Source: Pandoraea fibrosis
GTDB lineage: Bacteria; Pseudomonadota; Gammaproteobacteria; Burkholderiales; Burkholderiaceae
DNA length: 64,000 nucleotides
Direction: 5' to 3'
Assembly: GCF_000807775.2 (NCBI RefSeq)
Contig: NZ_CP047385.1
Coordinates: 4,526,001-4,590,000 of the forward strand
The notes below the pieces were generated by a model, which ran no database searches, had not been told where the DNA came from, and was given only the letters and a program-made list of their open reading frames with translations. Position 1 is the stretch's first letter, and each line of letters opens with the position of its first letter. The position numbers and the translations under genes are program-made. Positions 1-18,683 of this stretch are shown piece after piece.

Positions 1-279
1 TCAGCGCACACCGTCGGCATGGAGTTGCAGACCGGTCAGTTGACGGTGCTCGACGTGCAGGGCTTTCCGGCGTGGCAAAGCTGGTACGTCGTGCATCGCC
101 GCAGCAAGCGGCTACCGCCGGTCGCGCAAGCCTTCCGGGAATTCCTGCTGACCGACGGCGCGGCACTCATCGACGGCATGATGGCCTACAAGAGTCCGGT
201 GCCGCCGCCCGAAAGCCGCGGAAAATCGCCTGCGGCTCCGGGGATCGGCCCGGATGCCTCGCGTCAGACCGACACCTGA
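1..279 (+). CDS. LysR-family transcriptional regulator, C-terminal end (partial)
   Basis: The reading frame is open from base 1 and ends in TGA at 277-279, so only the last ~92 residues are present. The stretch WYVVHRRSKRLPP followed by AFREFLL is typical of the end of the LysR substrate-binding domain, where the last helix carries the 'W..VH...K.L.P.A..FR.FL' pattern; CbbR/CfxR-like members look most similar. The N-terminal HTH lies outside the window, so its targets cannot be judged. It runs convergently towards the hydrolase gene that ends at 412. The family call is fairly firm, the subfamily is not. Confidence 0.75.
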   Translation, partial: SAHTVGMELQTGQLTVLDVQGFPAWQSWYVVHRRSKRLPPVAQAFREFLLTDGAALIDGMMAYKSPVPPPESRGKSPAAPGIGPDASRQTDT

Positions 280-411
280 TCCGCTGGCTGAATCCGCTGA
301 ATCGGCCAGATCGGCCAAAGCAGCCAACGTTGCCACATCGGCCAAATGAAAAAGGGCGATCGACTCAGGCCATTGCCACCCCGGCCGACCACCGTGAAAT
401 CGGTTGCCTCG

Positions 412-1185
412 TTAGCCGCCCATGCGGTTGGCGAGCGTGCCCAGTCCGTCGATGCTCACTTCCACCAGCGCGCCCTCTTTCATCGAGCCAACGCCAATCG
501 AGGTGCCCACCGCGATCACGTCGCCCGGCAGCAGGGTCATGTCCTGCGAGAGACGCGCGACGAGTTGCCACGGGTTGAAGATCATGTCCGCAAGCGGGTA
601 GCGCTGACGCTCCGTGCCGTCGAGTCGCGTGACCAGTTCGGCTTCGTGCCAGTCGAAGTCCTGCGCAATCACCGGGCCGATGCAGCCAAACGTGTCGAAG
701 CCCTTGGCGCGCGTCCACTGCGCGAAATTACCGTCCTGCTCGATGATTTCAGCGGCGGTGACGTCGTTGACCAACGTATAGCCGAGGATGTGATCGCGCG
801 CGGCTTCCTCGCTCACATGGCTTGCGCGCTTGCCGATCACCACGCCCAGTTCGCCCTCGAAAACGATCTTGCCGGCATACGACGCCGGACGACGAATCAC
901 TGCGTCGGGCCCGGACAGCGACGTCGCAGGCTTGATGAGGAAGAGCGGATGCGACGGCGCGGCTTTGCCGAGCTTCGCGCCGAGCGCGTGAAAGTTGTTC
1001 CACAGCGCCACGATTTTCGAGGGCTCGCAGGGGCACAGCAGATCGACGGCGTCGCGCGCAATCGTCGCGCCCGTGGCAATCGGCTGCTCGAAGAGACTGC
1101 CGCGATGTTCGAGAATGTGGTCGCCCTGCAGCAGGCCGAAGCCGATGCGGCCATGGGCGGTCTTGAAACGGGTCCAGAGCTTCAT
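412..1185 (-). CDS. Fumarylacetoacetate hydrolase (FAH) family protein
   Basis: 257 residues, the usual length of the FAH/2-hydroxyhepta-2,4-diene-1,7-dioate isomerase family. The metal-binding acidic pattern is visible as EGELGVVIG, with a later VNDVTA aspartate, and the C-terminal GDVIAVGTSIGVG and VEVSIDGLGTL stretches are typical. I chose the ATG at 1185 (MKLWTRFK) because AGGAA lies about 10 nt upstream; longer upstream starts lack this. It lies 122 nt after the second frc-like gene in the same direction and is probably cotranscribed. Family members hydrolyse C-C bonds of diketo acids or decarboxylate oxaloacetate-like substrates. The substrate is unknown, but oxalate context makes an oxaloacetate- or acylpyruvate-type reaction plausible (inference). 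Confidence 0.85.
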   Translation of the reverse strand: MKLWTRFKTAHGRIGFGLLQGDHILEHRGSLFEQPIATGATIARDAVDLLCPCEPSKIVALWNNFHALGAKLGKAAPSHPLFLIKPATSLSGPDAVIRRPASYAGKIVFEGELGVVIGKRASHVSEEAARDHILGYTLVNDVTAAEIIEQDGNFAQWTRAKGFDTFGCIGPVIAQDFDWHEAELVTRLDGTERQRYPLADMIFNPWQLVARLSQDMTLLPGDVIAVGTSIGVGSMKEGALVEVSIDGLGTLANRMGG

Positions 1186-1307
1186 GCGTTTGCCATTCCT
1201 GTAACGTCCCGGCGGTGCGGCAGGTTTCGCCGCGCGCACGCCGGGCACGATGTCTTGAAGTCATTCACATCTGCCTTGTGCAGACACTTGCGCGCGTGCG
1301 CCGTCGC

Positions 1308-2555
1308 TTACAACGCGCCGACTTCGCGCAGCGCCGCAATCTGTTGCGCGCTGTAGCCGAACTCCGCGAGCACATCGTCGGTGTGCTCACCCAGCAGCGG
1401 CGAGCGCTCCACATGCGTGGGGCTGTCCGAGAGCTTGATCGGGTTGCCGACGGTGAGGTATTTGCCACGCTTCGGGTGATCGACTTCGACGATGGTGCCG
1501 GTCTCGCGCAGCGACATGTCTTCCGCGATTTCCTTCATCGAGAGAATCGGGCCGCACGGAATGTCGTACTCGTTGAGAATCGCCATGACCTCGAACTTGG
1601 TCTTCGTCATCGTCCATTGCTCGATCGTGTCGAAGATCTCGCGCAGACGCGGCAGACGGGCACGCGGCGTGGCGTATTCCGGATGCTCGACCCATTCGGG
1701 CTTACCGATCACCTTGCAGATCGATCCCCACACCGGAGCCTGCGTAATGAAGTAGATGTAGGCGTTCGGGTCCGTCTCCCAGCCCTGGCATTTGAGAATC
1801 CAGCCCGGCTGGCCACCGCCTGACGCATTGCCGGCACGCGGCACCGCATCGCCGAACTGGCCGTTCGGGAACTGCGGATACTCTTCCATCACGCGTGCGC
1901 GCTCGAGACGCTGCTGATCACGCAGCTTCACCCGGCACAGGTTCAGCACACCGTCCTGCATGGCGGCCAGCACGCGCTGCCCCTGCCCCGTCATCGTGCG
2001 CTGATACAGCGCCGTGACAATGCCCAGCGCCAGATGCAAACCCGTGCCCGAGTCACCGATCTGGGCGCCCGTGACCATCGGCGGACCATCGTCGAAGCCG
2101 GTCGTCGATGCGGCTCCGCCCACGCACTGCGCCACGTTTTCGTAGACCTTGCAGTCCTGATACGGCCCCGGCCCGAAACCCTTGACCGACGCCACGATCA
2201 TGCGCGGATTCAACGCGTGAATATGCTCCCACGTGAAGCCCATGCGATCGAGCGCGCCGGGCGCGAAGTTTTCCACCAGCACGTCGCAATCGCGAATCAT
2301 GCGCTCGAGCACCGCCTTGCCTTCGGGGTGCTTCGTATCGAGCGTGATCGACCGCTTGTTGCTGTTGAGCATCGTGAAGTAGAGGCTGTCCGCATCGGGA
2401 ATGTCACGCAGTTGCTCGCGCGTGACATCGCCATGACCGGCGCGTTCGATCTTGATCACGTCGGCGCCGAACCAAGCCAGCAACTGCGTGCACGTCGGCC
2501 CGGACTGCACGTGCGTGAAGTCGAGAATGCGCACACCTTCAAGTGCCTTGCCCAT
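1308..2555 (-). CDS. CoA-transferase, formyl-CoA:oxalate CoA-transferase-like (second paralogue)
   Basis: 415 residues, class III CoA-transferase (CaiB/BaiF). It aligns by eye along its whole length with the frc gene at 3864-5114. Gln17 (in FTHVQSGP) and the catalytic aspartate (Asp168 in QIGDSGTG, equivalent to Asp169 of Oxalobacter Frc) are present. The mobile glycine loop reads SGGGQPG instead of GGGGQPG. It would move CoA from an acyl-CoA (formyl-, succinyl- or acetyl-CoA) to oxalate. It has its own AT-rich operator-promoter region at about 2830-2866, so it can be expressed apart from oxlT-oxc-frc. Preferred donor or acceptor may differ from the first copy; this is inference. Confidence 0.85.
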
Positions 2556-2829
2556 GGTCGTCTCCGTTCAGCAGGCCGCCAGGGCGATCGCGCCTGGGAC
2601 AGACACCGAAAGTTGGCTCGCGGCACACGCCGAGGTCTGCTGTGCGTGTGTGCCACACGCGGGGCTGGCTTCGCGCCGGAAGCTGGCGACGGTGAACATG
2701 GTTTGTCTCCTCCTGATGCGACGGCGTTTATGTAATCGGTATGCGAAACGTTTCGGTGCGCAGGTCTCGCGGATCTCACGATGGCCGTCGCATCTTCGGG
2801 CGCCATGCCTATCGTCGATCGATTGTTGT

Positions 2830-2861
2830 GATATACGGTATTTCATACACGATATTTTATC
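2830..2861 (-). promoter_or_regulatory. Putative GntR operator (site A), upstream of frc paralogue
   Basis: The plus strand reads GATATACGGTATTTC followed by ATACACGATATTTTATC, two copies of a GATATACGrTAT-like element in an AT-rich patch of otherwise GC-rich DNA. Read on the minus strand a TTGATA hexamer (2866-2861) is followed after 17 nt by TACCGT, a weak sigma70-like promoter that the motif would overlap. Related motifs occur at about 8618, 9121, 10699 and 11991. Confidence 0.6.
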
Positions 2862-3112
2862 AACGGCTTTTTGTTGCCGATGGCTTTTGCTGTGGCGCCG
2901 CATAGGAGCCTCAAAAATGACCGAAACCCTCATGAATAAAGGGAAAATGCAGTGCACCATTGCCCTGGGCGAACGGCTTGCCTACGGGTTTACAGGCATG
3001 CGAGGTGAACCAGAAATTCGCGCCTCAGTAGGGCCGTTTCATCAAATTGCCTTTCAATATATTGAATACAAAATACCCACGGAACGATCCCGCGCCCTCT
3101 TCGCCCGACCAG

Positions 3113-3171
3113 AATGCAAAAAGCACCGATTCGCGACACCGGCCCCAAGGGGATGTCGCGAATCGGTGCTT
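3113..3171 (-). terminator. Rho-independent terminator of the PAS gene
   Basis: A perfect 18-bp inverted repeat, 3121-3138 (AAGCACCGATTCGCGACA) paired with 3154-3171, has a 15-nt loop that is itself CCCC/GGGG-rich. On the minus strand the stem is followed directly by TTTTTGCATT. It lies 38 nt beyond the PAS stop codon. Confidence 0.9.
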
Positions 3172-3209
3172 CGTCGATGTTCAGGTGACGGCAGGACGCC
3201 GTCGAGCGA

Positions 3210-3650
3210 TCAGCCTGCCGTGGCCGCCAGCTTGGCCTCCAGTTCGGCCAGGCGCTTGCGCAACTGACGGTCCTCCTGGAAGCGTGCCGTCTCGTCGCGG
3301 ATCACCGCGACGATGCCGGTCACTTCGCCGTCGGCACCATGCAGCAGCGCTACCGTGAACGCGATCGACAGGCTCCGGCCGTCCTTGTGCGCGGCAGGCA
3401 CTTTCAACAGATCGCTGCCGTACTTCGTCTGCCCGGTCTCCATCGTCTTGGCATAGCCTTCGTTGTGACGCGTGCGCAGCCGCTCGGGAATGATGATGTC
3501 CAGCGGCTGACCGACAGCTTCGGCCGCTGAGAAACCGAACATCTTTTCTGCGCCGGAATTCCACAGCGTGATGACGTTGTGCGGATCGGCGACCACGATG
3601 GCGTCGCCTACCACCTGCACCAACTGATTGACGTCGACGGATGCACTCAT
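3210..3650 (-). CDS. Free-standing PAS-domain protein
   Basis: 146 residues. Almost the whole protein is one PAS fold: a start near residue 10 (VVGDAIVVADPHNVITLWN), then GAEKMFGFSAAEAVGQP and IIPERLRTRHNEGY, then VTGIVAVIRDET at the end of the sheet, followed by a short charged coiled coil (RQLRKRLAELEAKL). No kinase, GGDEF, HTH or other output domain is present. The ATG at 3650 follows GGAGAC. It lies between the oxlT-oxc-frc unit and the second frc unit and is insulated by strong terminators on both sides, so it is probably its own transcript. It may sense a ligand or redox state and act through a partner protein; function unknown. Confidence 0.85.
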   Translation of the reverse strand: MSASVDVNQLVQVVGDAIVVADPHNVITLWNSGAEKMFGFSAAEAVGQPLDIIIPERLRTRHNEGYAKTMETGQTKYGSDLLKVPAAHKDGRSLSIAFTVALLHGADGEVTGIVAVIRDETARFQEDRQLRKRLAELEAKLAATAG

Positions 3651-3739
3651 GATGTCTCCAAGACTTTTGTGGGGAATGCGCCTGGCATGACTACCAAACA
3701 TGCAAATAAAGTACATCAATTAGAGGACAACACAGTCCC

Positions 3740-3780
3740 GAAAATGAAAATGGGTGCTCGCTCCGAGCGGAGCCGCACCC
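3740..3780 (-). terminator. Rho-independent terminator after frc
   Basis: GGGTGC-tc-GCTCCG-ag-CGGAGC-c-GCACCC (3752-3780) forms a long GC stem. Read on the minus strand it is followed by TTTTCATTTTC. It closes the oxlT-oxc-frc unit. Confidence 0.85.
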
Positions 3781-3863
3781 ATGAACACCGTCTCGCGCTC
3801 GCACACGCCGTCGCCACCCTGGGGCGGCTTCAGCGCGTGCGACGCACCGTACGTGTGTCGAAC

Positions 3864-5114
3864 TTACACCGAACGCGACGAATGCAGGTTCGCGATCTGG
3901 TCCTTGCTGTAACCCAGCTCGGCCAGAATCTCGTCGGTGTGCTCACCCAGCAGCGGCGAGCCCGTGATTTCCGGCTTCAGGCCCGAGAACTTGATCGGGC
4001 TGCCAACGGTCAGGTACGAACCACGTTCCTTGTGCGGCACTTCCACGATCGTGCCCGAAGCGCGCAGCGACGGATCGTTCGCGATTTCCTTCATCGACAG
4101 CACCGGTGCGCAAGGAATGTCGAACTTGCGCAGGATGTCGACCGCTTCGTACTTCGTCTTGTCGGCAAGCCACTCTTCGATGGTCGCGAAGATGTCGAAG
4201 ATGTGCGGTTGACGGGCTTGTGCCGTGGCGTAGTTCGGATCGGAGATCCATTCCGGCTTGCCCAGCGCGCGGCAGATCGGCTCCCAGGCGTGTCCCTGAA
4301 TCGTGAAATAGATATACGCGTTCGGGTCCGTCTCCCAGCCCTTGCACTTGAGCACCCAGCCCGGCTGGCCGCCACCGCCTGCGTTGCCGCCACGCGGCAC
4401 CACGTCGCTGAACTCGCCATGCGGGTACTGCGGATACTCTTCGAGGTAGCCGACACGATCCAGACGCTGTTGGTCGCGCAGCTTCACACGGCACAGGTTG
4501 ATCACCGAGTCCTGCATCGAGACGGCGACCTTCTGACCGCGGCCCGTCTGACCACGGCCGATGAGGGCCGTCAGAATGCCGATCGCCAGGTGCATACCGG
4601 TGTTGCTGTCGCCGAGTGCGGCGGCCGACACCGTCGGGGGACCGTCCCAGAAGCCGGTCGTCGAAGCCGCACCGCCGGCGCACTGCGCCACGTTCTCATA
4701 GACCTTCAGGTCGTCGTAGTGGTGACCGTCCGAGAAGCCCTTGACCGATGCCACGATCAGCTTCGGATTCAGTTCGTTCAGACGCTCCCACGTGAAGCCC
4801 ATGCGGTCGAGCGCGCCCGGAGCGAAGTTTTCGACGAGCACGTCCGATTCCTTCACGAGCTTCTCGAGCACTTCCTTGCCTTCCGGCGTCTTCGTGTCCA
4901 GCGTCAGCGAGCGCTTGTTGCTGTTGAGCATCGTGAAGTACAAGGCATCGGCGTCGGGGATGTCGCGCAGTTGGCTACGCGTGACGTCGCCCGAACCGGG
5001 GCGCTCCACCTTGATGACGTCCGCACCGAACCAGGCCAGCAACTGCGTGCAGGCGGGGCCGGCTTGAACGTGCGTGAAGTCGATGATCTTGATACCTTCG
5101 AGGGGTTTGCTCAT
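3864..5114 (-). CDS. frc: Formyl-CoA:oxalate CoA-transferase
   Basis: 416 residues, close to the 428 of Oxalobacter formigenes Frc. It exchanges CoA between formyl-CoA and oxalate, giving oxalyl-CoA and formate in the cytoplasm. Gln17 (FTHVQAGP), catalytic Asp169 ([11 protein letters not shown]) and the glycine loop GGGGQPG (about 246-252) are all present, together with the typical C-terminal [13 protein letters not shown]. It begins 25 nt after oxc in the same direction with AGGAGACATGAC upstream of the ATG, so the two are cotranscribed and form the cyclic Frc/Oxc pair. Sequence and context agree. Confidence 0.95.
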
Positions 5115-5139
5115 GTCATGTCTCCTTGATTGACTCGGA

Positions 5140-6930
5140 TTACTTTTTCATCGCCGCGCTTTGCGGATTCAGATTCGTCAGACGGCCGCTTTCGGTGCCC
5201 GCAGCTTCGTCGATGACGGCGTTAATCAGCGCCGGCTTGCCTGCCGCGATAGCTTCCTTGAGCGCGTTCGTCAGTTCTTCCGGCGTGGTGACGTTGTAAC
5301 CAATGCCACCGAAGGCTTCGATCATCTTGTCGTAGCGCGCGCCCTTCACGAACACGGTCGGTGCCACATCCTTGCCGCCCGTCGGATTGACGTCGGTGCC
5401 GCGATAGACGCCGTTGTTGTTGAAGATGATGGTGGTGACCGGCAGCTCGTAACGGCAGATGGTTTCGAGTTCCATGCCGCTGAAGCCGAACGCGCTGTCG
5501 CCTTCGATGGCCACAACCGGCTGACCGCTCGTCACGGCAGCGCCGATGGCAAAGCCCATGCCGATGCCCATCACGCCCCACGTACCCGAGTCGAAGCGCT
5601 TGCGCGGCTGGTACTGGTCGATGATGGCGCGGGCGTAGTCGAGCGTGTTCGCGCCTTCGTTGACGAGATTGATGTCCGGGTGCTGCTTGAGCACATCGCG
5701 AATCGCGCCGAGTGCGCTGTGGAAGTTCATCGGCGACGGATTCTGGGCAAGCGTTGCCGCCATCTTGGCCAGGTTCTTGTTCTTGCGCTCGGCAATGGCG
5801 CCAGTCCACTCGGCGGACGGCTTGCCGAACTTGCTGTCGACACCGGCGAGCAGTGCCGACACGCACGAACCGATATCGCCGATGACCGGCGCGGCAATCG
5901 CGACGTTGCTGTCGATTTCCGTCGGCGAAATGTCAATCTGCACGAACTTCTTCGGTGCCGAGCCCCACGTCTTGCCCTTGCCGTGTGCGAGCAGCCAGTT
6001 CAGGCGCGCGCCGATCAGCACGACGACGTCGGCCTCTTGCAGCACGAACGAGCGCGCGGCCGATGCCGATTGCTCATGCGTGTCGGGCAGCAGCCCCTTG
6101 GCCATCGACATCGGCAGGTACGGAATGCCGGTCTTCTCGATGAGGGCACGGATGTCGGCATCGGCCTGCGCGTAAGCCGCGCCCTTGCCCAGCAGAATCA
6201 GCGGACGCTTGGCGCCCTTGATGACGTCGAGCGCGCGCTGGACGGCATCCGGTGCCGGGATCTGACGCGGTGCGGCGTCGATCACGCGAATCAGCGAGTC
6301 CTTGGCCTTTTGTGCGTCGATGGTCTGCGCGAGCAGCTTGGCCGGCAGATCCAGATAGACGCCGCCAGGACGGCCGGACACGGCCGCACGAATCGCGCGG
6401 GCCAGGCCAACGCCGATGTCTTCGGCGTGCAGCACACGATATGCCGCCTTGCAATACGGCTTGGCCGCATTGAGTTGGTCCATCTCTTCGTAATCGCCTT
6501 GCTGCAGGTCGACGATCTCACGCTCGCTCGAACCGCTGATCAGGATCATCGGGAAGCAGTTGGTCGTCGCGTTGGCAAGTGCCGTCAGGCCATTCAGGAA
6601 GCCAGGTGCGGAGACGGTCAGGCAGATGCCGGGCTTCTGCGTCATGAAGCCGGCGATGGCGGCCGCGTGGCCGGCATGTTGTTCATGGCGGAAGCCGATG
6701 AAACGCATACCTTCGGCTTGCGCGAGGCGGGCCAGATCGGTGATGGGAATCCCCACCAGACCGAAGATGGTGTCGATGTCGTTCGCTTTCAGGGCATCGA
6801 TGACCAGATGGAAGCCATCCGTCGTTTCTGCCTCGGACACGATGTTCGCGTGTCGGCTGGTGTCTTTGAGCGTGTCGCCCGCGGTATCGTTTTCCGCCTT
6901 GCCGACTGGCACGGTCATCGCAATGGACAT
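5140..6930 (-). CDS. oxc: Oxalyl-CoA decarboxylase (thiamine diphosphate dependent)
   Basis: 596 residues. It converts oxalyl-CoA to formyl-CoA and CO2, consuming a proton. The N-terminal ThDP glutamate (Glu83 in [11 protein letters not shown]), a central domain, and the C-terminal ThDP/Mg motif ([14 protein letters not shown] ending in [11 protein letters not shown]) are visible, with [14 protein letters not shown] ahead of it. The start at 6930 (MSIAMTVPV) follows GGAGAGAATT. The protein carries about 25-30 extra N-terminal residues compared with Oxalobacter Oxc. It sits between oxlT (191 nt upstream) and frc (25 nt downstream). Confidence 0.95.
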
Positions 6931-7121
6931 AATTCTCTCCTCCAAATTTTCCGGTTTCAGTGTTGCGTCGTCTTGTCTGACGATTAGTGGGTATTCCTGT
7001 ACTGCTTCTCTACTTGCTCACCCGGCCGTGCAACCGCACCCGCGAGGGCACGGATTGCACGCCGGTCAAACATTTCTCTAATCAAGCCAGCCAGTCTGCT
7101 TCTTCACATCGTCAGTGCGCG

Positions 7122-8453
7122 TTACGTGGTGCTGCGGCTCAGATCCGCAGCTTTCACGACCGGCTCACTGGATTGCGCCTTGAAATCACTCGCGTAACGC
7201 TGCGCCAGACGGGCACGCATCGGCTTGAGGACGAACAAGGCAAGGAAGGCAGCGAAGGCATTCATGGCGCAGGCGACCATGAACACGGCCTGCCAGCTAC
7301 CGGTCATCGAGGTGATGACACTGGAGAAGGGCACCAGCAAAGCGGCGGTCCCCTTCGCGGTGTACAACATCCCCGCATTGGTAGCGGCATACTTCGAGCC
7401 ATACGTATCGGCGCAGGTCGCCGGGAACAAGCTGTAGATCTCACCCCAGGCAAAGAACACCAGACCGGTCAGCAGCACGAAGGCCACCGGATGCTGGCCA
7501 TACTTCGCCAGTGCGTAGATCCCCACGGCTTCCATCGCAAAGGCGATGAACATCGTGTTTTCGCGACCGATCTTGTCCGATATCCAGCCGAACACCGGAC
7601 GCGTCACCCCGTTGAGCACACGGTCGATAGCCAGTGCGAAGGTGAGTGCGGGCAGTGTGAGACCGAGAAGCGAGACAGGTGCCTGATCCAGACCGTAGTC
7701 CTTGGCAATCGGGCCGAGCTGTGCCGTTGCCATCAGACCGCCGGCGGCCATCAGCACGAACATCAGATACATCAGCCAGAACACCGGGGAGCGCATGACT
7801 TCCGTCGGCTTGGCGTTGTAGCGCATCGCGCCGGGCGCCAGCTTCTTGAGCGCTTCGATCGATGCGGGCGGACTGGCGAGCGCCAGACCCAGCACCAGCA
7901 CGATGATCCCCTGTCCCAGCCCGAAGGTCAGGAAGGTGTTCTCGTAGCCGCTCGACTTGATCATGTTGGCGATCGGTACCACGGTCAGTGCCGAACCGGC
8001 GCCGAAACCGGCAGCGGTAATCCCTGCGGCAAGACCACGGCGGTCCGGGAACCACTTCAGCGCGTTACCCACGCAAGTGCCATACACCGCACCAGCGCCC
8101 ACGCCACCCACCGCCGCTGCGAAATACAGCATCGGCAGCGAGGATGCATAGGCATTGAGCACCCATGCGATACCGCACAACAGACCACCCCCGACCACCA
8201 CCGGGCGCGGGCCGAACTTGTCGACCAGATACCCTTCGATCGGCACCAGCCAGGTTTCGGTCACGACGAAAATCGTGAATGCCACCTGAATGGCGGTACG
8301 GCCCCAGTGATACTTTTCATCGATCGGGTTGACGAACAGCGTCCACCCGTACTGCAAGTTGGCGATCATCGCCATGCAAATCACGCCGAACACGAGCTGA
8401 ACCCAAGGGCTCGCGAACACGGATTGTTTGCCGTGTTGATTTGTCGTCTCCAC
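7122..8453 (-). CDS. oxlT: Oxalate:formate antiporter (MFS, OxlT family)
   Basis: About 443 residues with 12 predicted membrane segments. It exchanges external oxalate(2-) for internal formate(1-), which makes the oxalate cycle electrogenic. The TM11 lysine of OxlT is present in the stretch YTAKGTAALLVPF, and a basic residue lies in NGVTRPVFGW, near the position expected for the other substrate-binding charge. I prefer the GTG at 8453 because GGAGGAGGTACAA lies directly before it; a GTG at 8495 with GGAAGG upstream would add 14 residues. It is first in the oxlT-oxc-frc unit, and its promoter contains the AT-rich operator at 8618-8642. Confidence 0.92.
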   Translation of the reverse strand: METTNQHGKQSVFASPWVQLVFGVICMAMIANLQYGWTLFVNPIDEKYHWGRTAIQVAFTIFVVTETWLVPIEGYLVDKFGPRPVVVGGGLLCGIAWVLNAYASSLPMLYFAAAVGGVGAGAVYGTCVGNALKWFPDRRGLAAGITAAGFGAGSALTVVPIANMIKSSGYENTFLTFGLGQGIIVLVLGLALASPPASIEALKKLAPGAMRYNAKPTEVMRSPVFWLMYLMFVLMAAGGLMATAQLGPIAKDYGLDQAPVSLLGLTLPALTFALAIDRVLNGVTRPVFGWISDKIGRENTMFIAFAMEAVGIYALAKYGQHPVAFVLLTGLVFFAWGEIYSLFPATCADTYGSKYAATNAGMLYTAKGTAALLVPFSSVITSMTGSWQAVFMVACAMNAFAAFLALFVLKPMRARLAQRYASDFKAQSSEPVVKAADLSRSTT

Positions 8454-8616
8454 TTGTACCTCCTCCATCGGTTTCCAGTTGTTTGGCAGCTTCACAACAA
8501 CAACACCTTCCGGATGGGGTCTATGCCCCCTGGGTATGCTTTACGAGGTCTTCGCCTCGTCGACTTGTGTCTGATGCTCACGGGAATCCATTGCCTTTCC
8601 CGTAAATATACCGAAC

Positions 8617-8646
8617 GAAATATACGATATATCAGATATAAGTCAA
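8617..8646 (-). promoter_or_regulatory. oxlT promoter with embedded operator (site B)
   Basis: On the minus strand TTGACT (8646-8641) is followed after 16 nt by TATATT. The spacer is made of the AT-rich element, plus-strand ATATACGATATATCAGATAT. A repressor bound here would lie between -35 and -10, the usual arrangement for a GntR-type repressor released by its inducer. Confidence 0.65.
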
Positions 8647-8675
8647 CACTAATTTATCGCTGTCCTCGCTTTCCC

Positions 8676-8733
8676 CCTCGCGTGCCGAAGTCGTTTTCGT
8701 CCATTGCAGCGAAAACAACTACGGCACGCGAGG
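8676..8733. repeat. Long imperfect inverted repeat (24-nt arms)
   Basis: The arm 8676-8699 begins CCTCGCGTGCCG; the arm 8710-8733 is its reverse complement at 22 of 24 positions. The loop is 10 nt (TCCATTGCAG). It is much longer than a normal terminator stem and is not followed by a T-run on either strand. Confidence 0.85.
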
Positions 8734-8737
8734 CACT

Positions 8738-8778
8738 GTCCTAAGTGGCGGCTAGATACAGTAACGCCACTGTAGGAC
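8738..8778. repeat. Second inverted repeat directly after the first
   Basis: GTCCTAAGTGGCG (8738-8750) pairs with CGCCACTGTAGGAC (8765-8778) with a single bulged base; the loop is 14 nt. It starts four bases after the first inverted repeat, so the two would form adjacent hairpins in one transcript. Confidence 0.8.
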
Positions 8779-8845
8779 GGAGCGGCGCAACAACGCAATG
8801 CGAAAACACTAAGGAGTTAACCTGATCCGCGAAGCCTGCCAGATA

Positions 8846-8886
8846 AGGCGCTCAGCCCTTTTATATCGGGCTCCTTGCTATTTTTT
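8846..8886 (+). terminator. Possible terminator in the oxlT/panE region
   Basis: AAGG...AGCCC pairs with GGGCT-CCTT around a 9-nt AT loop, and TTTTTT follows at 8881-8886 after four bases. No plus-strand gene lies upstream, so if functional it would end a small RNA containing the two inverted repeats. Confidence 0.45.
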
Positions 8887-9118
8887 AAAACCAGCACAAG
8901 GCGATATTTTTGTGAATTTTTCTCACAAAATGTCCATGTGCCTGGCGGCCCGCCCTCGCTGTAACACACCGTAATAATTCACTCATCGGAAGCCGAAAGC
9001 GTTTTTCGAGGCGCTCTTCATGCCGGTCGCGCTCACACATCGGCGCCACAATTTTCCGGAGCACCTGCGGGGAAACCATGACGGCAATCGCCCGGAGAAT
9101 GCTTGGCGCTCCTCGCCT

Positions 9119-9140
9119 TGTGATATACGATATACAACAT
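9119..9140 (+). promoter_or_regulatory. Putative GntR operator (site C), upstream of panE
   Basis: TGATATACGATATACAAC at 9121-9138 contains the shared GATATACGATAT core. It lies about 70 nt before the panE-like start. A good -10 is not obvious; GGTATTAG at about 9143-9150 is a candidate. Confidence 0.55.
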
Positions 9141-9210
9141 TTGGTATTAGAAAAATAAATGGCCAGTACCAGGCCCCAGGTTTCGATTGACCTTTGGAGG
9201 GAGAGACTTC

Positions 9211-10224
9211 ATGAAGATTTGCATCTATGGCGCTGGTGCCATCGGTGGCTATCTCGGTGTGCAACTCGCGCGCGCCGGAGCCGATGTCAGCCTGGTGGCG
9301 CGAGGCCCGCATCTGGCGGCCATGCGCGAACACGGACTCAAGCTGCTGATTGACGGCGAGGAACGCGTCGCCCAGTTGCGTTGCACGGACGATCCGCGCG
9401 AACTCGGTCCGCAGGATTACGTGATCATCGCCCTGAAGGCGCACTCGGTCCCTGCGGTACTCGACGCGATGCAGCCATTGATCGGGCCGAACACGGCCGT
9501 CGTCACTGCCGTGAACGGCATCCCCTACTGGTACTTCTACAAGCATGGCGGCGCGCTCGAGGGCTCGACGCTGGAAAGCATCGACCCCGGTGGCCGTCAG
9601 TGGCGTCAACTCGGGCCGGAGCGCGCCATCGGCTGTGTGGTCTATCCGGCAACCGAAGTGGTCGCGCCGGGCGTGATCCAGCACGTCTACGGCAACAAGT
9701 TTCCGCTGGGCGAAGCCAGCGGCGAGCGCACCGAACGCGTGGAGAAACTCTCGCAGTTGATGATCGCCGGCGGACTCGACGCCCCGATCCGCGAGAACAT
9801 CCGCGACGAAATCTGGCTCAAGCTGTGGGGCAACCTCTGCTTCAACCCGATCTCCGCGCTCACCCACGGCACGCTCGACATTATTGCGAGCGACCCGGGC
9901 ACGCGAGCCATCGCCCGCGCCATGATGCTCGAAGCCAAAGCCATCGGCGACAAGTTCGGCGTGCACTTCCGTGTCGACGTCGAACGCCGCATCAACGGTG
10001 CCGGGGCGGTCGGCGCGCACAAGACGTCGATGCTTCAGGACCTTGAGCGCGGCCGCGCCATGGAAATCGATCCGCTCGTCTCTGTCGTCCAGGAGATGGG
10101 GCGTCTCGCCGGCGTGCCGACGCCGACCCTCGATGTCGTGCTGGCACTCATTCAGCAACGCGAATTCATGACGCAACCCGACGCCGTTGCCGCTGCGCAG
10201 GCACGACTGGCCAAAGCCGCCTGA
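9211..10224 (+). CDS. panE2: PanE/ApbA-family 2-oxoacid reductase, probable oxalyl-CoA reductase
   Basis: 337 residues with an N-terminal NADP-binding Rossmann motif (CIYGAGAIGGYLG, residues 3-15) and a C-terminal ketopantoate-reductase helical domain (KLWGNLCFNPISALTHGT and RRINGAGAVGAHKTSMLQDL). The ATG at 9211 follows GGAGGGAGAG. Ketopantoate reductases normally serve pantothenate synthesis. In Methylobacterium extorquens a paralogue, PanE2, reduces oxalyl-CoA to glyoxylate. Placement here, divergent from oxlT and behind the shared operator motif, makes that role more likely than pantothenate synthesis. The family is certain, the substrate is inferred. Confidence 0.8.
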   Translation: MKICIYGAGAIGGYLGVQLARAGADVSLVARGPHLAAMREHGLKLLIDGEERVAQLRCTDDPRELGPQDYVIIALKAHSVPAVLDAMQPLIGPNTAVVTAVNGIPYWYFYKHGGALEGSTLESIDPGGRQWRQLGPERAIGCVVYPATEVVAPGVIQHVYGNKFPLGEASGERTERVEKLSQLMIAGGLDAPIRENIRDEIWLKLWGNLCFNPISALTHGTLDIIASDPGTRAIARAMMLEAKAIGDKFGVHFRVDVERRINGAGAVGAHKTSMLQDLERGRAMEIDPLVSVVQEMGRLAGVPTPTLDVVLALIQQREFMTQPDAVAAAQARLAKAA

Positions 10225-10809
10225 GTCTTACGCCATTGGTTCGTTGATTTGAGATGGCGGCGTGCGGGGCGCGCAACGGTGTCCCGCCGGATGATTCGAC
10301 GCTATCTATATAGAGAGCAGAAAAATGGACGGCACGGTCAGTGAAACGGATCGCGCCGCCACCCTGCCCCGCAAGCGCTCAAACGTGCCGCCGCCGGTCT
10401 CCCGGTCGCGGCCGATTTTTTGCCGAAGACCGCCGGTTTGTCCGGCCGATGCAAGCAATACCGGATGTGGTTTCGCGGCAACGCAATAACCCTCATTAGC
10501 CTCACCCCGGGAGCCTGACCGCTTCCCTCGAAAACCGGACGCGCCACCCGCGTCCCGAAATCCGCACTAATGTAAGCCCGACGGACATCTGAGGAGGTGC
10601 ACTGCCATCATCAATCCCATGAACACTATCGGAAAAAGAGACAAATTCAGGCAGCCGACACGCAAGGTGACGTAAGGAACGTCCCGAAAAACGATAAATT
10701 TTGATATTCGGTATGTGGTATATCTTGAGACTTGTTGCGGCGCGACATACAATGCAAAGCAAGTTCTCCCCCACATTACGACCGTTAAACATTTATCAGG
10801 AGTGTCACC
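10225..10809. other. Intergenic region before the gntR unit
   Basis: 585 bases. The right end carries promoter and operator D (10699-10753). The rest shows no convincing gene; a 54-codon frame opening at 10325 (MDGTVSETDRA) lacks a clear ribosome site and recognisable composition. Confidence 0.5.
10699..10753 (+). promoter_or_regulatory. Promoter and operator (site D) of the small membrane gene and gntR
   Basis: TTGAGA (10725-10730) is followed after exactly 17 nt by TACAAT (10748-10753), a good sigma70 promoter. Immediately upstream and abutting the -35 is TTGATATTCGGTATGTGG and then TATATC, the same AT-rich element seen before the other oxalate genes. The arrangement implies autoregulation by the GntR protein encoded downstream. 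Confidence 0.7.
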
Positions 10810-11028
10810 ATGTTAGTCGCTGCGCTTACTCTGCTTGCCCTTGCTTCCGCACTTGCTGCCGGTGTTGCGATGGTTCACCTCTTCGTCGCCCTGCCGGCCT
10901 CGATGCTCGAAAAGGCCGAAACGAATGGCCGTTTCGCTTATGTCGCGGAAACCACGCGGGCAAACGAATCGGGTAAACTCGTGACCAAGCCGGCAACCAT
11001 CGTGGGGCAACAAGCATTGCGCCTCTGA
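10810..11028 (+). CDS. Small single-span membrane protein of unknown function
   Basis: 72 residues. One hydrophobic segment fills about residues 2-28 (MLVAALTLLALASALAAGVA), followed by a polar tail of about 40 residues. The ATG follows CAGGAG at proper spacing. It is the first gene after the operator-D promoter and lies 29 nt before gntR, so it is cotranscribed with the regulator. No family is recognised. A role as a transporter accessory or envelope protein for oxalate growth is possible but is only inference. The translation signals and operon position support a real gene. Confidence 0.7.
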   Translation: MLVAALTLLALASALAAGVAMVHLFVALPASMLEKAETNGRFAYVAETTRANESGKLVTKPATIVGQQALRL

Positions 11029-11057
11029 AGGGGCCGTAATACCTAGGAGACTATTGC

Positions 11058-11771
11058 ATGTCCCTGATCACCCCAACTCCGGCGCGCGTGACTCCACTCG
11101 TGCTGGAGCCGATCGACACCACGACGAGTTTTCGCAATCAGGCGTATGCGCTGCTGAAAAAAGCCATCGCCGATGCCGATATCTATAACCAGAAGGAAGA
11201 AATTCGCCTGGATGAGCGTCAGCTCATCCAGGTGCTTGGCGTTTCGCGCACGCCGATTCGCGAAGCCATGACCCTGCTGGAACAGGAAGGCTTTCTGCGA
11301 ACGGTGCCGCGCCGGGGCATTTTCATCATCCGCAAGACCAAGCGTGAAATCGTTGAAATGATTCAGATGTGGGCCGCCCTCGAAGGGATGTCCGCGCGAT
11401 TGGCCACGTTGCACGCGAGCGACGAAGAAATCGCAAAGCTGCGTCATTTGTTCGACGAATTCGTCAATGCACCGCCGACGGATCATATCGAAGAGTATTC
11501 GGACGCGAACATCGACTTCCATCAGGCGCTGATCAATCTCGGCGGCTCGCAAGCCATCGCCAACACGATCAAGAACCTGTTCATTCATGTGCGCGCCATC
11601 CGCAAGGTGACGATCGCTCAGAATGACCGGGCCGCACGCTCGATCGTCGATCACCTGAAGATCATCACCGCGCTCGAAAAGCGTGACACGGAACTCGCCG
11701 AGAAACTCGCGCGCGATCACACGTTGGGCCTGGCTGCCTTCGTGGAAGAGCACTGCGACTTCCTCGAGTAA
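11058..11771 (+). CDS. GntR-family regulator, FCD/FadR subgroup
   Basis: 237 residues. The N-terminal winged HTH covers about residues 25-95 (LDERQLIQVLGVSRTPIREAMTLLEQEGFL, then RRGIFI). The C-terminal all-helical FCD domain follows, with ligand/metal-type acidic and histidine residues (DANIDFHQAL, IVDHLKII, LARDHTLG). ATG at 11058 with CTAGGAGAC upstream. It is the only regulator inside the island and is the natural candidate to bind the five AT-rich motifs. The inducer is unknown; oxalate, oxalyl-CoA or formate are candidates. Confidence 0.92.
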   Translation: MSLITPTPARVTPLVLEPIDTTTSFRNQAYALLKKAIADADIYNQKEEIRLDERQLIQVLGVSRTPIREAMTLLEQEGFLRTVPRRGIFIIRKTKREIVEMIQMWAALEGMSARLATLHASDEEIAKLRHLFDEFVNAPPTDHIEEYSDANIDFHQALINLGGSQAIANTIKNLFIHVRAIRKVTIAQNDRAARSIVDHLKIITALEKRDTELAEKLARDHTLGLAAFVEEHCDFLE

Positions 11772-11798
11772 TCGAGTCACCTTAGCGTTAGCCAGCAG

Positions 11799-11866
11799 CG
11801 TCGTCCGGCAACGGACGACGCCAGTCGAAGAGCCAGTGGCATGCGAATGTCGCTGGCTTTTTCTTT
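11799..11866 (+). terminator. Double hairpin terminator after gntR
   Basis: A perfect 9-bp stem with a GCAA tetraloop (11799-11820) is followed by a second stem, AGCCAGTG pairing with CGCTGGCT (11831-11858), and then a T-rich tail TTTTTCTTT. The second hairpin is the likely terminator. Confidence 0.8.
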
Positions 11867-11986
11867 ATCCCGGTAGCCCCGCCTCCCGCGCACGGCCCGG
11901 CGCCGTCCACGCGCCGGTCAACGTCCGCCGACCTTCCTCCCCCTCGACTTCGGGTAAACGAGCCTGCCAAACCGGGCTTCAATCTA

Positions 11987-12022
11987 TTGCACGTATACCG
12001 TATATCATATATCGTGTTTCAC
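11987..12022 (+). promoter_or_regulatory. fds promoter with embedded operator (site E)
   Basis: TTGCAC (11987-11992) and TATCGT (12010-12015) are separated by 17 nt. The spacer and flank carry GTATACCGTATATC and ATATATCGTG, that is, the reverse-complement form of the element seen at 2830 and 8618. Formate dehydrogenase would thus be in the same regulon as oxalate uptake. Confidence 0.6.
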
Positions 12023-12204
12023 ATACTGATGCTTCGCCACACGGGCGGCAGCGGCCTGCCGAGCGATCCAAAACGTGTGACGGGGCACCGCCACACGTTG
12101 GGTGAATCGATGGGTGGCGAGCGGTTTTCGAGTCGAAGGGCTCGCAGGACCGAAGCGTTGACCAAAGTTAACGGAAGTAAGCAACGGGCGAGAGGCCGAA
12201 CCCG

Positions 12205-12234
12205 TGCGGCATATGGTGGGGGCTATGTGCCGCA
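12205..12234 (+). promoter_or_regulatory. Strong hairpin in the fds leader
   Basis: TGCGGCATAT (12205-12214) pairs with ATGTGCCGCA (12225-12234), ten pairs with one G-T, around a GGTGGGGGCT loop. No T-run follows, so it is not a simple terminator. It lies about 150 nt before the fdsG start. Confidence 0.6.
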
Positions 12235-12384
12235 TGCTCTTCCGGCGCCGCGCTGATCGCTAGACCCGAGCAGCGTCGCCGGATGTGACCATTGGGCCTC
12301 TCGCCCCGGGGCAGGACAAAAACAGATAACCCATACCCTCAGGCGCACCGTTCCCCACAGTGCGCCAAACAGGAGACAACAGCC

Positions 12385-12852
12385 ATGCGCGAGGCTTTTT
12401 CCATCGCGACGGTGCAAGCGATTCTGGATGCTCATGCGGCTCAGGAAGGCCCTCTTCTGCCGATCCTCCATGACGTTCAGGAAGCTTTCGGCTACGTACC
12501 CCCGGATGCCGTGCCTGTCATCGCCAACGCCCTCAATCTCTCTCGCGCCGAAGTGCATGGCGTGATCACGTTCTATCACCACTTCCGCACCAGTCCGCCG
12601 CCGCGTCACGTCGTGCAGATCTGTCGCGCCGAGGCGTGTCAGAGCATGGGCGCCGATGCGCTCGTCGCGCATGCGGAACGTGTGCTGGGCTGCGCCATGC
12701 ATAGCCACGGCGGCGATGTCGCCCTCGAGCCGGTGTATTGCCTCGGACAGTGTGCGACGTCGCCCGCCATCACGATCGACGACAAGCTGCACGCGCGCGT
12801 CACCCCCGAGAAATTCGACCGTCTGGTCGCCCGCGCCAAGGATGCCGCATGA
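12385..12852 (+). CDS. fdsG: NAD-dependent formate dehydrogenase, gamma subunit
   Basis: 155 residues, NuoE-like thioredoxin fold carrying one [2Fe-2S] cluster. The four ligand cysteines are in CRAEACQSMG (first pair) and CLGQCATSP (second pair). It passes electrons between the catalytic subunit and the FMN/NAD subunit. ATG at 12385 follows AGGAGACAACAGCC. Its stop codon overlaps the fdsB start (ATGA). Confidence 0.95.
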   Translation: MREAFSIATVQAILDAHAAQEGPLLPILHDVQEAFGYVPPDAVPVIANALNLSRAEVHGVITFYHHFRTSPPPRHVVQICRAEACQSMGADALVAHAERVLGCAMHSHGGDVALEPVYCLGQCATSPAITIDDKLHARVTPEKFDRLVARAKDAA

Positions 12853-14465
12853 GCCAGTCCTCCACTTCCGCCAAGACGCCTGCAACGGTTGGCAAGACCG
12901 GCAAGGTGCGCCTCTATCTGCCGCGCGACTCCGCCGCCCTCGCGCTCGGCGCCGATGACGTCGCCGACGCCATCGCCGCGCAAGCGGCTCAGCGCGGCAT
13001 CGAGATCGAACTCGTGCGCAACGGTACGCGCGGCATGCTCTGGCTCGAGCCCCTGCTCGAAGTCGTGACACCGGCAGGACGCGTTGCCTATGGCCCGGTC
13101 GAGGTCGACGACGTGGCCAGCCTCTTCGATGCCAACGTCACCGCCGGCGGCGATCACCCGCTCGCGCTCGGACTCACGGAAGAGATCCCGTATTTCAAGA
13201 AGCAGGAACGGCTGACGTTCGCCCGCGTGGGCGTCACCGACCCCGTGTCGGTCGACGATTACGTGGCGCACGACGGCTATCGCGGCCTGCGCAACGCCCT
13301 CGCGCTGGATGGCGCCGCCATCGTCGCGCAAGTCACCGAGTCCGGCTTGCGCGGACGCGGCGGTGCGGCGTTCCCGACCGGCATCAAATGGAAGACGGTG
13401 CTCAACACGCCGGCGGCGCAGAAATACATCGTCTGCAACGCCGACGAAGGCGACTCGGGCACGTTCGCCGACCGCATGCTGATGGAAGGCGATCCGCTCG
13501 TGCTCGTCGAGGGCATGACGATTGCCGGTATCGCAGTGGGCGCCACGCGCGGTTATATCTACGTGCGCAGCGAATACCCGCATTCCATCGACGTCCTCAA
13601 CGAAGCCATCGTCAACGCCAACAAGGCGGGCTATCTCGGCGAGAACATTCTGGGCTCGGGGCACACGTTCCATCTCGAAGTGCGAAAAGCGGCAGGCGCC
13701 TATGTCTGCGGCGAAGAAACCGCACTGCTCGAGAGCCTCGAAGGCAAGCGCGGTGTCGTGCGCGCCAAGCCGCCGTTGCCCGCCATCGAAGGTCTCTTCG
13801 GCCTGCCGACGGTCATCAACAACGTGATTTCGCTGGCCTCGGTGCCGATCATCATGGATCGCGGTGCGGAGTTCTACAAGAACTTCGGCATGGGACGCTC
13901 GCGCGGCACGTTGCCCATTCAGCTTGCCGGCAACATCAAATACGGCGGCCTGATCGAGAAGGCATTCGGTGTGACGTTGCGCGAGATCCTGTACGACTAC
14001 GGCGGTGGCGCCATCACCGGCCGCCCGCTGCGTGCCGTGCAGGTCGGTGGCCCGCTCGGCTCGTATCTGCCCGAATCGCAATGGGATACGCCGCTCGACT
14101 ATGAAGCGTTCGCTGCGCTCTGGGCCGTGCTGGGTCACGGTGGCATCGTGGCGCACGACGACACTGTCGACCTGGCCAAGCTCGCGCGTTACGCGATGGA
14201 GTTCTGCACCATCGAATCGTGCGGCAAGTGCACGCCATGCCGTATCGGCTCGACGCGTGGCGTCGAAGTGATGGACCGGATCATCGACGGACGCGACCGT
14301 CCGAAGCAGATCAAGCTGCTGCGCGACCTGTGCGACACGATGCTCGCAGGCTCGCTGTGCGCCATGGGCGGCATGACGCCCTACCCCGTGCTGTCTGCGC
14401 TGAACCATTTCCCCGAAGACTTCGGCGCGGCCGAACCGTCGAATCTGCCGACCAAGGCCGCCTAG
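12849..14465 (+). CDS. fdsB: NAD-dependent formate dehydrogenase, beta (diaphorase) subunit
   Basis: 538 residues, NuoF-like. It binds FMN and NAD (GRGGAAFPTGIKWK and the GDSGTFADR region) and a [4Fe-4S] cluster (ESCGKCTPCRIG, first cysteine about residue 458). The N-terminal ~110 residues form the extra domain typical of FdsB/HoxF-type diaphorases. It reduces NAD with electrons from formate. The start is fixed by the four-base ATGA overlap with fdsG, indicating translational coupling. Confidence 0.95.
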   Translation: MSQSSTSAKTPATVGKTGKVRLYLPRDSAALALGADDVADAIAAQAAQRGIEIELVRNGTRGMLWLEPLLEVVTPAGRVAYGPVEVDDVASLFDANVTAGGDHPLALGLTEEIPYFKKQERLTFARVGVTDPVSVDDYVAHDGYRGLRNALALDGAAIVAQVTESGLRGRGGAAFPTGIKWKTVLNTPAAQKYIVCNADEGDSGTFADRMLMEGDPLVLVEGMTIAGIAVGATRGYIYVRSEYPHSIDVLNEAIVNANKAGYLGENILGSGHTFHLEVRKAAGAYVCGEETALLESLEGKRGVVRAKPPLPAIEGLFGLPTVINNVISLASVPIIMDRGAEFYKNFGMGRSRGTLPIQLAGNIKYGGLIEKAFGVTLREILYDYGGGAITGRPLRAVQVGGPLGSYLPESQWDTPLDYEAFAALWAVLGHGGIVAHDDTVDLAKLARYAMEFCTIESCGKCTPCRIGSTRGVEVMDRIIDGRDRPKQIKLLRDLCDTMLAGSLCAMGGMTPYPVLSALNHFPEDFGAAEPSNLPTKAA

Positions 14466-14478
14466 GAGAGTGCCCACC

Positions 14479-17343: not shown

Positions 17344-17572
17344 GTCGTCAAAGGAAGCAAACGCGCGCCGCGTCGACGCAGATCTGCGCAGTCGGCAATC
17401 TCGGCGAGGTGCGCGCGGTAACGGACAATCCGCGTCCGGCGCCGGAGCACTCCGGCGGGCTTCACCGTCTATTGCCAGAAGACGGTGCGGCGGACGCGAG
17501 ATTGGCCACGCAACGCAGCCAGTCACACGGCATCACACCGACAGAGAACGATTTCAGGGGACAGAACAGATC
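17344..17572. other. Gap where fdsC is usually found
   Basis: 229 bases between fdsA and fdsD. In Cupriavidus necator the order is fdsGBACD, with the sulfurtransferase-like chaperone fdsC (fdhD family) at this place. Here there is no room for it, and I see no FdhD motif in any frame. Confidence 0.6.
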
Positions 17573-17806
17573 ATGGACACCGACAACCTGGTCAAGATGG
17601 CCAATCAGATCGGGGACTTCTTCGAGACGATGCCCGATCGCGGCGAAGCGCTCGAGAACATTGCAGGCCACCTGCGACGCTTCTGGGCCCCGCGCATGCG
17701 CATGACGATTCTCGAACACCTCGAAGCCACCGACGGGCACGGCATGCGCGAGATCGTGGTGGCGGCGATCACGACGCACCGCGCCGAACTCTGGCCACGC
17801 GGCTAA
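17573..17806 (+). CDS. fdsD: Formate dehydrogenase delta subunit
   Basis: 77 residues, matching the size and pattern of FdsD (KMANQIGDFFETMPDR near the start, HLRRFWAPRMR in the middle). The small subunit is needed for stability or maturation of the FDH complex rather than catalysis. It follows fdsA by 229 nt and ends 28 nt from the convergent transporter gene. Confidence 0.93.
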   Translation: MDTDNLVKMANQIGDFFETMPDRGEALENIAGHLRRFWAPRMRMTILEHLEATDGHGMREIVVAAITTHRAELWPRG

Positions 17807-17834
17807 GCCGTGTGACGCTCGGTAGCGCAGACTG

Positions 17835-18683
17835 CTACGCGCCCAGCTTGATGAGTACCGCGCCGCCGACCACGAGGCTGCATGCCACGAGGCGGCGGGC
17901 GTTGAGCTTCTCGCGCAGGAACAGCCAACCCAGCAACACCGCGAAGATGGCGCTCGACTCGCGCAGCGCCGACACGACACCCATCGGCAGGTATTGCAGC
18001 GCAAAGACCACCATGCCGTAGGCGCACTGCGCCACGATGCCCGCGCCCAACGCCTCCGTCACGCGGCGGCGCGGCGCGAGAAACATGCCGCGCCATCCGC
18101 CACGCCATGTCCACACTGCGCCCACGAGCGGCACGCTGGCGAACAGGTAGGCCCATGCGATATAGCCGAAACCGTTGCCCGTCGACAGGCGCACGCCGAA
18201 GCCGTCGACAATCGTGTAAGCCGCGATGAACACCCCGGTGAGCAATGCCGCAGGCACGCTATCGCCCGACAGGCGGCGCCCGCGCAATGCCAGCGTCAGA
18301 ATGCCGAGGCAGATGCAGGCGATCCCTGCCACGGCCATCCAGCGAGGCAACTCCCCGGCAAGCAGCAAGGCCGCCCCGGAGATCAGCAGCGGGGAAATGC
18401 CGCGCGCAATGGGATAGATTTGCCCGAACTCGCCCACGCGATACGCACGAATGAGCGCCGCCGTATAAGCCACCTGCGCGCAGGCAGAGAGCAGGATGAG
18501 CGGCCAGACCTGCACGGGCGGCAGCGGCAGCCACAGCACACCGACCACCGCCGTGAGCAATTGCGGCACGGCCATCATGCCAACCTGCCAGAGACGATCG
18601 GGACTCGCGTGGAGAAACGCGTTCCAGGTGGCGTGCATCAGGGCTGAGAGCAGCACCAGCAGCACGATGGGCGTGGTAGTCAT
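17835..18683 (-). CDS. EamA-family drug/metabolite transporter
   Basis: 282 residues, ten hydrophobic helices in two EamA repeats (N-terminal LSALMHATWNAFLHASPDR; C-terminal SALRESSAIFAVLLGWLFLREKL). The second repeat ends with the usual VGGAVLIKLG. An inner-membrane exporter; the substrate cannot be read from sequence. Convergent with fdsD, so not part of that operon. Confidence 0.88.
   Translation of the reverse strand: MTTTPIVLLVLLSALMHATWNAFLHASPDRLWQVGMMAVPQLLTAVVGVLWLPLPPVQVWPLILLSACAQVAYTAALIRAYRVGEFGQIYPIARGISPLLISGAALLLAGELPRWMAVAGIACICLGILTLALRGRRLSGDSVPAALLTGVFIAAYTIVDGFGVRLSTGNGFGYIAWAYLFASVPLVGAVWTWRGGWRGMFLAPRRRVTEALGAGIVAQCAYGMVVFALQYLPMGVVSALRESSAIFAVLLGWLFLREKLNARRLVACSLVVGGAVLIKLGA

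Follow-up and report, generated by a model that had tools for sequence, protein, structure and literature searches.

The window analysed here, a 64 kb stretch at 63% G+C from the genome of Pandoraea fibrosis (5.59 Mb, one contig), contains genes for oxalate breakdown together with the gene of a GntR regulator with an FCD domain (positions 11058-11771), and arrays built on a common inverted repeat lie before several of these genes. In our opinion, the arrays are operators of this regulator, which would likely use them to repress an oxalate regulon; the sequence comparisons behind this explanation lead us to give it, as a whole, a probability of about 85%. The regulon would comprise uptake of oxalate (oxlT), its activation and decarboxylation (two frc genes and oxc), reduction (a panE-like gene) and formate oxidation (fds). 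Since many other proteobacteria have a switch of the same kind next to their copy of this regulator gene, we think that the arrays are very probably the places where the regulator binds. The local GntR/FCD protein had already been named as the binder in a first-pass annotation of this DNA, and the proposal is supported by the motif recovered from distant homologues (47 of 52 regions), by a comparison of oxc loci with and without the regulator (2/4 against 0/26) and by conservation within the genus.

The repeat in the window and in other genomes

The first-pass annotation had marked five sites, before an frc paralogue, oxlT, the panE-like gene, the gntR unit and fds. All five were found where it had placed them, and the genes behind them were confirmed, with NCBIfam models for frc2, oxlT and the fds gamma subunit. 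The near-palindrome that it had described is real and far beyond chance, but its centre is a single base (ATAC-N-GTAT) and most sites are longer than the core first noted. The five sites have as their common core the odd-centred inverted repeat TGATATAC-N-GTATATCA, which is mostly extended by boxes at 7-bp steps. Besides one repeat centre per noted site (2837, 8626, 9129, 10710 and 11999), additional centres occur 7 or 14 bp off in most sites, and the strong ones recur every 7 bp (2837/2844/2851, 8626/8633, 9129/9136, 10710/10717 and 11999/12006/12013). With a sixth array that had not been annotated, the set is as follows:

2829-2863, minus strand: array before frc2, centres 2837, 2844 and 2851
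3056-3076, no strand given: sixth array, AATATATTGAATACAAAATAC, centres 3063 and 3070
8604-8640, minus strand: array before oxlT, centres 8626 and 8633, weak centre 8612
9121-9148, plus strand: array before the panE-like gene, centres 9129 and 9136
10702-10724, plus strand: array before a small open reading frame and gntR, centres 10710 and 10717
11993-12026, plus strand: array before fds, centres 11999, 12006 and 12013

The pattern TGATATACNNTATATCA, with at most three mismatches, has 9 strand-matches in the window, where 0.04 are expected, and none of 100 shuffles attained 9. It recovers four of the five sites and the partner centred at 12013; the fifth site (10699) has four mismatches to the pattern and was detected by half-site scoring (12/16). 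Genome-wide, 24 strand-matches of the pattern were counted against 11 of the reversed pattern, and nine of the 24 fall inside the cluster, so that the other 15 are near chance. The best pattern matches outside the cluster, at G000:C1:3378014 and 3166232 (L001 and L002), have 0 and 1 mismatch; judged by eye from translations, their neighbours resemble an alpha/beta hydrolase and an HPP/CBS protein, and these two may be members of the regulon or chance matches.

The motif was then sought among distant relatives of the regulator. A starting set of 80 loci plus five (L016-L020) gave 72 that were kept (L016-L087), while 13 (L088-L100; 29-34% identity, no match to the window genes) were excluded from the motif counts. 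The near set consists of L016-L034 and L078, with GntR proteins 63-74% identical, and the far set has GntR proteins 40-59% identical. An oxalate gene, defined by at least 50% identity and a place within 4 kb of gntR, was present in 63/72 loci, and oxc or frc in 59/72; the loci without one nearby are L016, L017, L031, L035, L037, L039, L070, L076 and L087, six of these nine stretches being shorter than 7 kb. A scan of the loci using only the window consensus failed to detect many of the distant ones, and a de novo search was used instead. After four of the 56 far gntR upstream regions had been dropped as redundant, a palindromic search from random seeds in the remaining 52 yielded TGGtATAcngTATaCCA, present in 47, with a log-likelihood of 407.9 against 43-52 in five shuffled sets. 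Although the window genome was not in its training, the far matrix ranks the window centres 9129, 2837 and 11999 first, second and third, 10717 sixth and 8626 eighth. The near set, for which 59 stretches upstream of gntR and oxalate genes were used, gave a motif similar to the far one in 36 of them; its log-likelihood was 232, whereas four shuffled sets reached 27-34. The top 15 window matches of the near-set matrix all fall within 2837-12013.

At 18 bits or more, the near-set matrix gave 10 matches in 2560-12380, none in the other parts of the window and one in a 400 kb control from the same genome. The far-set matrix matched three places in the cluster and two in the 400 kb control at 13 bits, with no match elsewhere in the window; at 11 bits, the counts were six in the cluster, three elsewhere in the window and three in the control. 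Across the far loci (892 kb), 116 matches reached at least 14 bits, of which 78 lie near gntR, four near oxlT, two near frc2, one near panE, one near fdsB and 30 elsewhere. Nine proteins hand-picked from the list of 30, namely five TctC-type transporter receptors and four ATP-grasp CoA ligases preceded by the motif, fit with carboxylate uptake and activation; five other matches lie within open frames longer than 500 codons and resemble chance hits. The receptors (in L043, L046, L056, L060 and L075) are candidate oxalate importers. In two Cupriavidus loci (L025 and L026), the motif stands before gntR, frc2 and oxc, and in L025 also before panE.

Conservation was also followed within Pandoraea. 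A GntR match is present in 30 of the 32 congeneric genomes, and 18 clusters and two stretches of one further genome (G328) were taken; the window GntR is 96% identical to a Pandoraea faecigallinarum GntR. The oxlT array has at most one mismatch in 17/18 clusters and four in the remaining one, and the panE array at most two in 17/18 and again four in the last. The gntR array (at most two mismatches) and the fds array (at most three) are each kept in 17/18 clusters, the frc2 array (at most three) in 15/18 and the sixth array (at most two) in 13/18. In a control stretch, the best match of the array strings ranged from 7 (sixth array) to 21 mismatches. The flanks are less conserved than the arrays, which gives a footprint-like pattern in the genus. 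Of the 13 genomes with the sixth array, 12 have it 226-228 bp away from the frc2 array, and the remaining one has it at 307 bp. In one cluster (L162), neither fdsG nor the fds array was detected; in another (L166), oxlT was not seen and its array, with the four mismatches, stands before oxc. The idea that the frc2 array is lost together with the second frc gene was dropped, because the stretches do not extend far enough to cover that gene.

No oxc was found at E 1e-150 in the congeners without a GntR match (G194 and G323) or with divergent copies only (G321 and G328), whereas three other congeners checked (G313, G314 and G327) have it. The two genomes lacking oxc and bearing divergent gntR genes hold two such copies each. 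In G328 (L168 and L169), the arrays are retained beside both copies, which adjoin frc-type genes and a thiamine-diphosphate enzyme that is 28% identical to oxc and below all NCBIfam cutoffs shown; another decarboxylase or lyase may stand there in place of oxc.

Could the sites be mere A+T-rich promoter DNA with no specific binder? Their 61-bp segments do have 28-39% G+C in a window of 63% G+C. The repeat score at the five sites, however, gave P values of 0 to 0.006 in local shuffles (500 per 61-bp site, dinucleotides kept), so that their richness in A+T is not a sufficient explanation, and only one of 59 A+T-rich control segments attains 17 bits. Moreover, the sites are conserved amid drifting flanks and agree with a motif learned from distant genomes. 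We regard this possibility as extremely improbable.

A second alternative is binding of the sites by a different FCD/GntR paralogue of the genome, either on its own or jointly with the local protein, given that FCD regulators often read GTATAC-like DNA. The FCD regulator Atu1419 reads ATGTATACAT (PMC7797058), and TTGGTATACCAA (L012 1501-1517, G000:C1:4516164) stands before another GntR-like gene, named by eye, about 10 kb left of the window. Against a paralogue, the 17-bp repeat goes with the local gntR lineage and the genes around it in distant genomes as well, and it is absent before oxc in all sampled genomes that lack the local regulator. For this comparison, 300 Burkholderiales genomes were surveyed, of which five, this genome included, have a close GntR (E 1e-50) and 51 have oxc. 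Thirty of the 51 oxc loci were scanned for a match of at least 20 bits within 600 bp upstream of oxc, and such a match was present in two of the four regulator-bearing genomes and in none of the 26 that lack the regulator, where the top score was 9.4; these 26 genomes are related by descent rather than independent, and a more distant regulator may exist in them. We think that binding by a paralogue is improbable, and the local GntR protein stays our preferred binder.

Several observations weigh against it nevertheless. The motif is missing from five of the 52 far regions (L039, L050, L055, one of the two L065 gntR copies and L087) and from 23 of the 59 near-set regions. The far-set matrix is weakly selective, with a best control score of 17.0, and ranks centre 10710 of the gntR site only 33rd. 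Two of the regulator-bearing genomes lack a site at oxc, namely G255 and the present one, where oxc follows oxlT with the same orientation. L166 has the fds array, yet no fdsG was detected there. Finally, the three promoter-like sites in the region are at chance level (shuffle mean 2.5, standard deviation 1.5), no commoner than in shuffles, so promoter readings carry little weight by themselves.

The gene cluster and the regulator protein

In the following gene list, both frc copies, oxc, oxlT and fdsG (gamma subunit of formate dehydrogenase) owe their identity to NCBIfam equivalog models with scores above cutoff:

1308-2555, minus strand: frc2, second formyl-CoA transferase gene, TIGR03253 above cutoff
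3864-5114, minus strand: frc, formyl-CoA transferase gene, TIGR03253 above cutoff
5140-6930, minus strand: oxc, oxalyl-CoA decarboxylase gene, TIGR03254 above cutoff
7122-8453, minus strand: oxlT, oxalate/formate antiporter gene, TIGR04259 above cutoff
9211-10224, plus strand: panE-like reductase gene, ApbA/PanE domains, subfamily-level NCBIfam models
11058-11771, plus strand: gntR, proposed binder, GntR winged helix and FCD domain (Pfam)
12385-12852, plus strand: fdsG, first gene of the formate dehydrogenase set (gamma subunit), NF004638 above cutoff

By its likeness to apbA2 of Cupriavidus necator (PMC7486775), the panE-like product is probably a glyoxylate/oxalyl-CoA reductase. Growth of that organism on oxalate requires the frc-oxc operon (PMC7486775), and the pathway enzymes are the same as here; our motif comparison comes from the two Cupriavidus loci L025 and L026. 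The term GntR does not occur in the text of PMC7486775.

Some smaller features accompany these genes. A 72-codon open reading frame with a hydrophobic N-terminus (10810-11028, plus strand) lies between the gntR promoter and gntR, and weak homologues of the same size occur upstream of gntR in L027 (37%, E 4e-6) and L019 (34%, E 1e-5). A short open reading frame with a ribosome-binding-like stretch, AGGAGGAG, was seen by eye at about 2700-2570 (minus strand), between the frc2 array and frc2. The roughly 360 bp between the fds array and fdsG (12027-12384) are in parts similar among some congeners and fit no Rfam family. RNA elements at the sites or in this long stretch were considered and rejected, as Rfam on 1-18000 gave microRNA models only (3116-3176), far below gathering scores.

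The regulator scores 42.6 bits with PF00392 (cutoff 27) and 89.1 bits with PF07729 (cutoff 24.3), which places it in the FCD subfamily of the GntR superfamily. With the PhnR-type model TIGR03338, it stays at 105.3 bits against a cutoff of 271.5; no other NCBIfam model matched at E 1e-20, and no named equivalog was reached. In its AlphaFold model, with a mean predicted local distance difference test score (pLDDT) of 86.4, 24 residues precede the first helix and residues 9-20 are of low confidence. The best fold matches are PmiR, 7u5q (a Brucella GntR protein), Atu1419 and TM0439; by profile, only the FCD part matches NanR (positions 104-217, E 8.9e-11). The zinc ligands of Atu1419 (Asn137, His141, His192 and His214; PMC7797058) align with N151, H155, H199 and H221, a predicted metal site that is identical in 56/56 sequences of the alignment.

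Probable repression, possible ligand and operator architecture

Two sigma70-like promoters were listed next to arrays, both as consensus matches only:

8619-8646, minus strand: TTGACT-16-TATATT, 10/12, overlapped by the oxlT array
10725-10753, plus strand: TTGAGA-17-TACAAT, 10/12, abutted by the gntR array

The first-pass annotation had reported such hexamers at three sites. Those at 8618 (8646-8619) and 10699 (10725-10753) stand, and for 11991 none is listed, anything there being below the scan threshold. The oxlT array spans the -10 element and the spacer of TTGACT-N16-TATATT, so a protein bound on it would block RNA polymerase. Arrays over a core promoter suggest repression, and we think that the regulator is likely a repressor rather than an activator. 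Activation by the bound regulator, at least at its own promoter, would agree with the array at 10702-10724, which adjoins the -35 element just upstream and ends where TTGAGA (10725-10730) starts. It agrees poorly with the oxlT array and with the weaker hexamers at panE, frc2 and fds (7-8/12, by eye, below the scan threshold), where the arrays also overlap the -10 element or the spacer; activation therefore appears rather unlikely to us. A repressor would most likely be released from the arrays by a small carboxylate at the conserved FCD metal site. With ligands of the Atu1419 type conserved in 56/56 sequences, a small carboxylate would be the likeliest effector. Oxalate would be our first choice, to which we give somewhat less than even odds, and an oxalate-derived metabolite the second.

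How the protein may sit on the arrays can be read in two ways. Each GTATAC-like box fits GT-N2-AC, and the conserved unit is the 17-bp repeat, in which TGGT and ACCA are 9 nt apart. In one reading, a single dimer would bind the TGGT and ACCA ends, a wider spacing than the typical 2-3 nt (PMC4494728), and the strong conservation of the outer TGG/CCA favours this. In the other, each box would be the site of one dimer, with dimers 7 bp apart, like NanR on close GGTATA repeats, which is favoured by the extra boxes in Pandoraea. The repeat by itself accounts for part of the 7-bp self-match, and extra boxes were judged from the flank test alone. In that test, the TATA match from +9 was 1.76 of 4 in the near set (29 sites), against 0.95 (standard deviation 0.14) at +15 and beyond, and 1.26 against 0.85 (standard deviation 0.07) in the far set (54 sites). 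The enrichment of further boxes is modest in both sets; the +9 base is T in just 17% of the near flanks, and the adjacent steps are raised too. As a tentative picture, the protein might be a proteobacterial oxalate sensor with several FCD dimers side by side on successive helix faces over overlapping GTATAC-like boxes 7 bp apart, with about three to five boxes per Pandoraea array, and the sixth array could loop over its 226-228 bp to the frc2 array.

Related systems and significance

Like the FadR/FCD subfamily (PMC4494728), the arrays show A+T-rich inverted repeats with TKGT/ACMA boxes and would belong to a carboxylate-responsive type of regulator of catabolic genes, and the extra half-sites described there at 7-12 nt from the centre are in line with the modest further-box enrichment found here. 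They differ in spacing: in that subfamily, 2-3 nt typically separate GT from AC, whereas TGGT-N9-ACCA is kept here in distant genomes. The string 'oxal' is absent from the text of PMC4494728. Several recognition-helix positions (e.g., 72 and 73) differ between proteins with TGA (near) and TGG (far) motifs, and none could be tied to the contacts given in PMC4494728, so this co-variation was set aside. NanR of Escherichia coli (PMC8012715) shares the close packing of short GGTATA-type boxes; on these, three NanR dimers bind in a cooperative manner, shifted by roughly half a turn of the helix, and the cooperativity resides in an N-terminal extension of the protein. The NanR boxes are direct repeats, in contrast to the inverted repeat of the window and of 47/52 distant regions. 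Atu1419 of Agrobacterium fabrum, of the VanR group (PMC7797058), is alike in its FCD fold, its Asn/His/His/His ligands and palindromes over the -10 element or spacer, and looping between sites 190 bp apart has been observed for it. It is unlike in its single 10-bp palindrome, ATGTATACAT, its folate-derivative ligand and its different target genes.

In the accessible parts of the literature searched, including PMC8305402, PMC12927642 and PMC3886118, no regulator is assigned to oxc or frc, which is weak evidence of absence because subscription papers were largely outside the search. The kind of system, a catabolic regulon, is well known and ordinary, and this member appears to be undescribed. 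Oxalate breakdown matters to soil carbon, to plant colonisation by relatives of Burkholderia and to kidney-stone research. For this field, the present analysis offers a candidate regulator family for oxc and frc, with a motif usable for scans of proteobacterial genomes, and comparative data on box spacing by FCD regulators. Moreover, it provides a part that might serve in an oxalate biosensor, and a predicted regulon that may include new oxalate importers of the TctC type.

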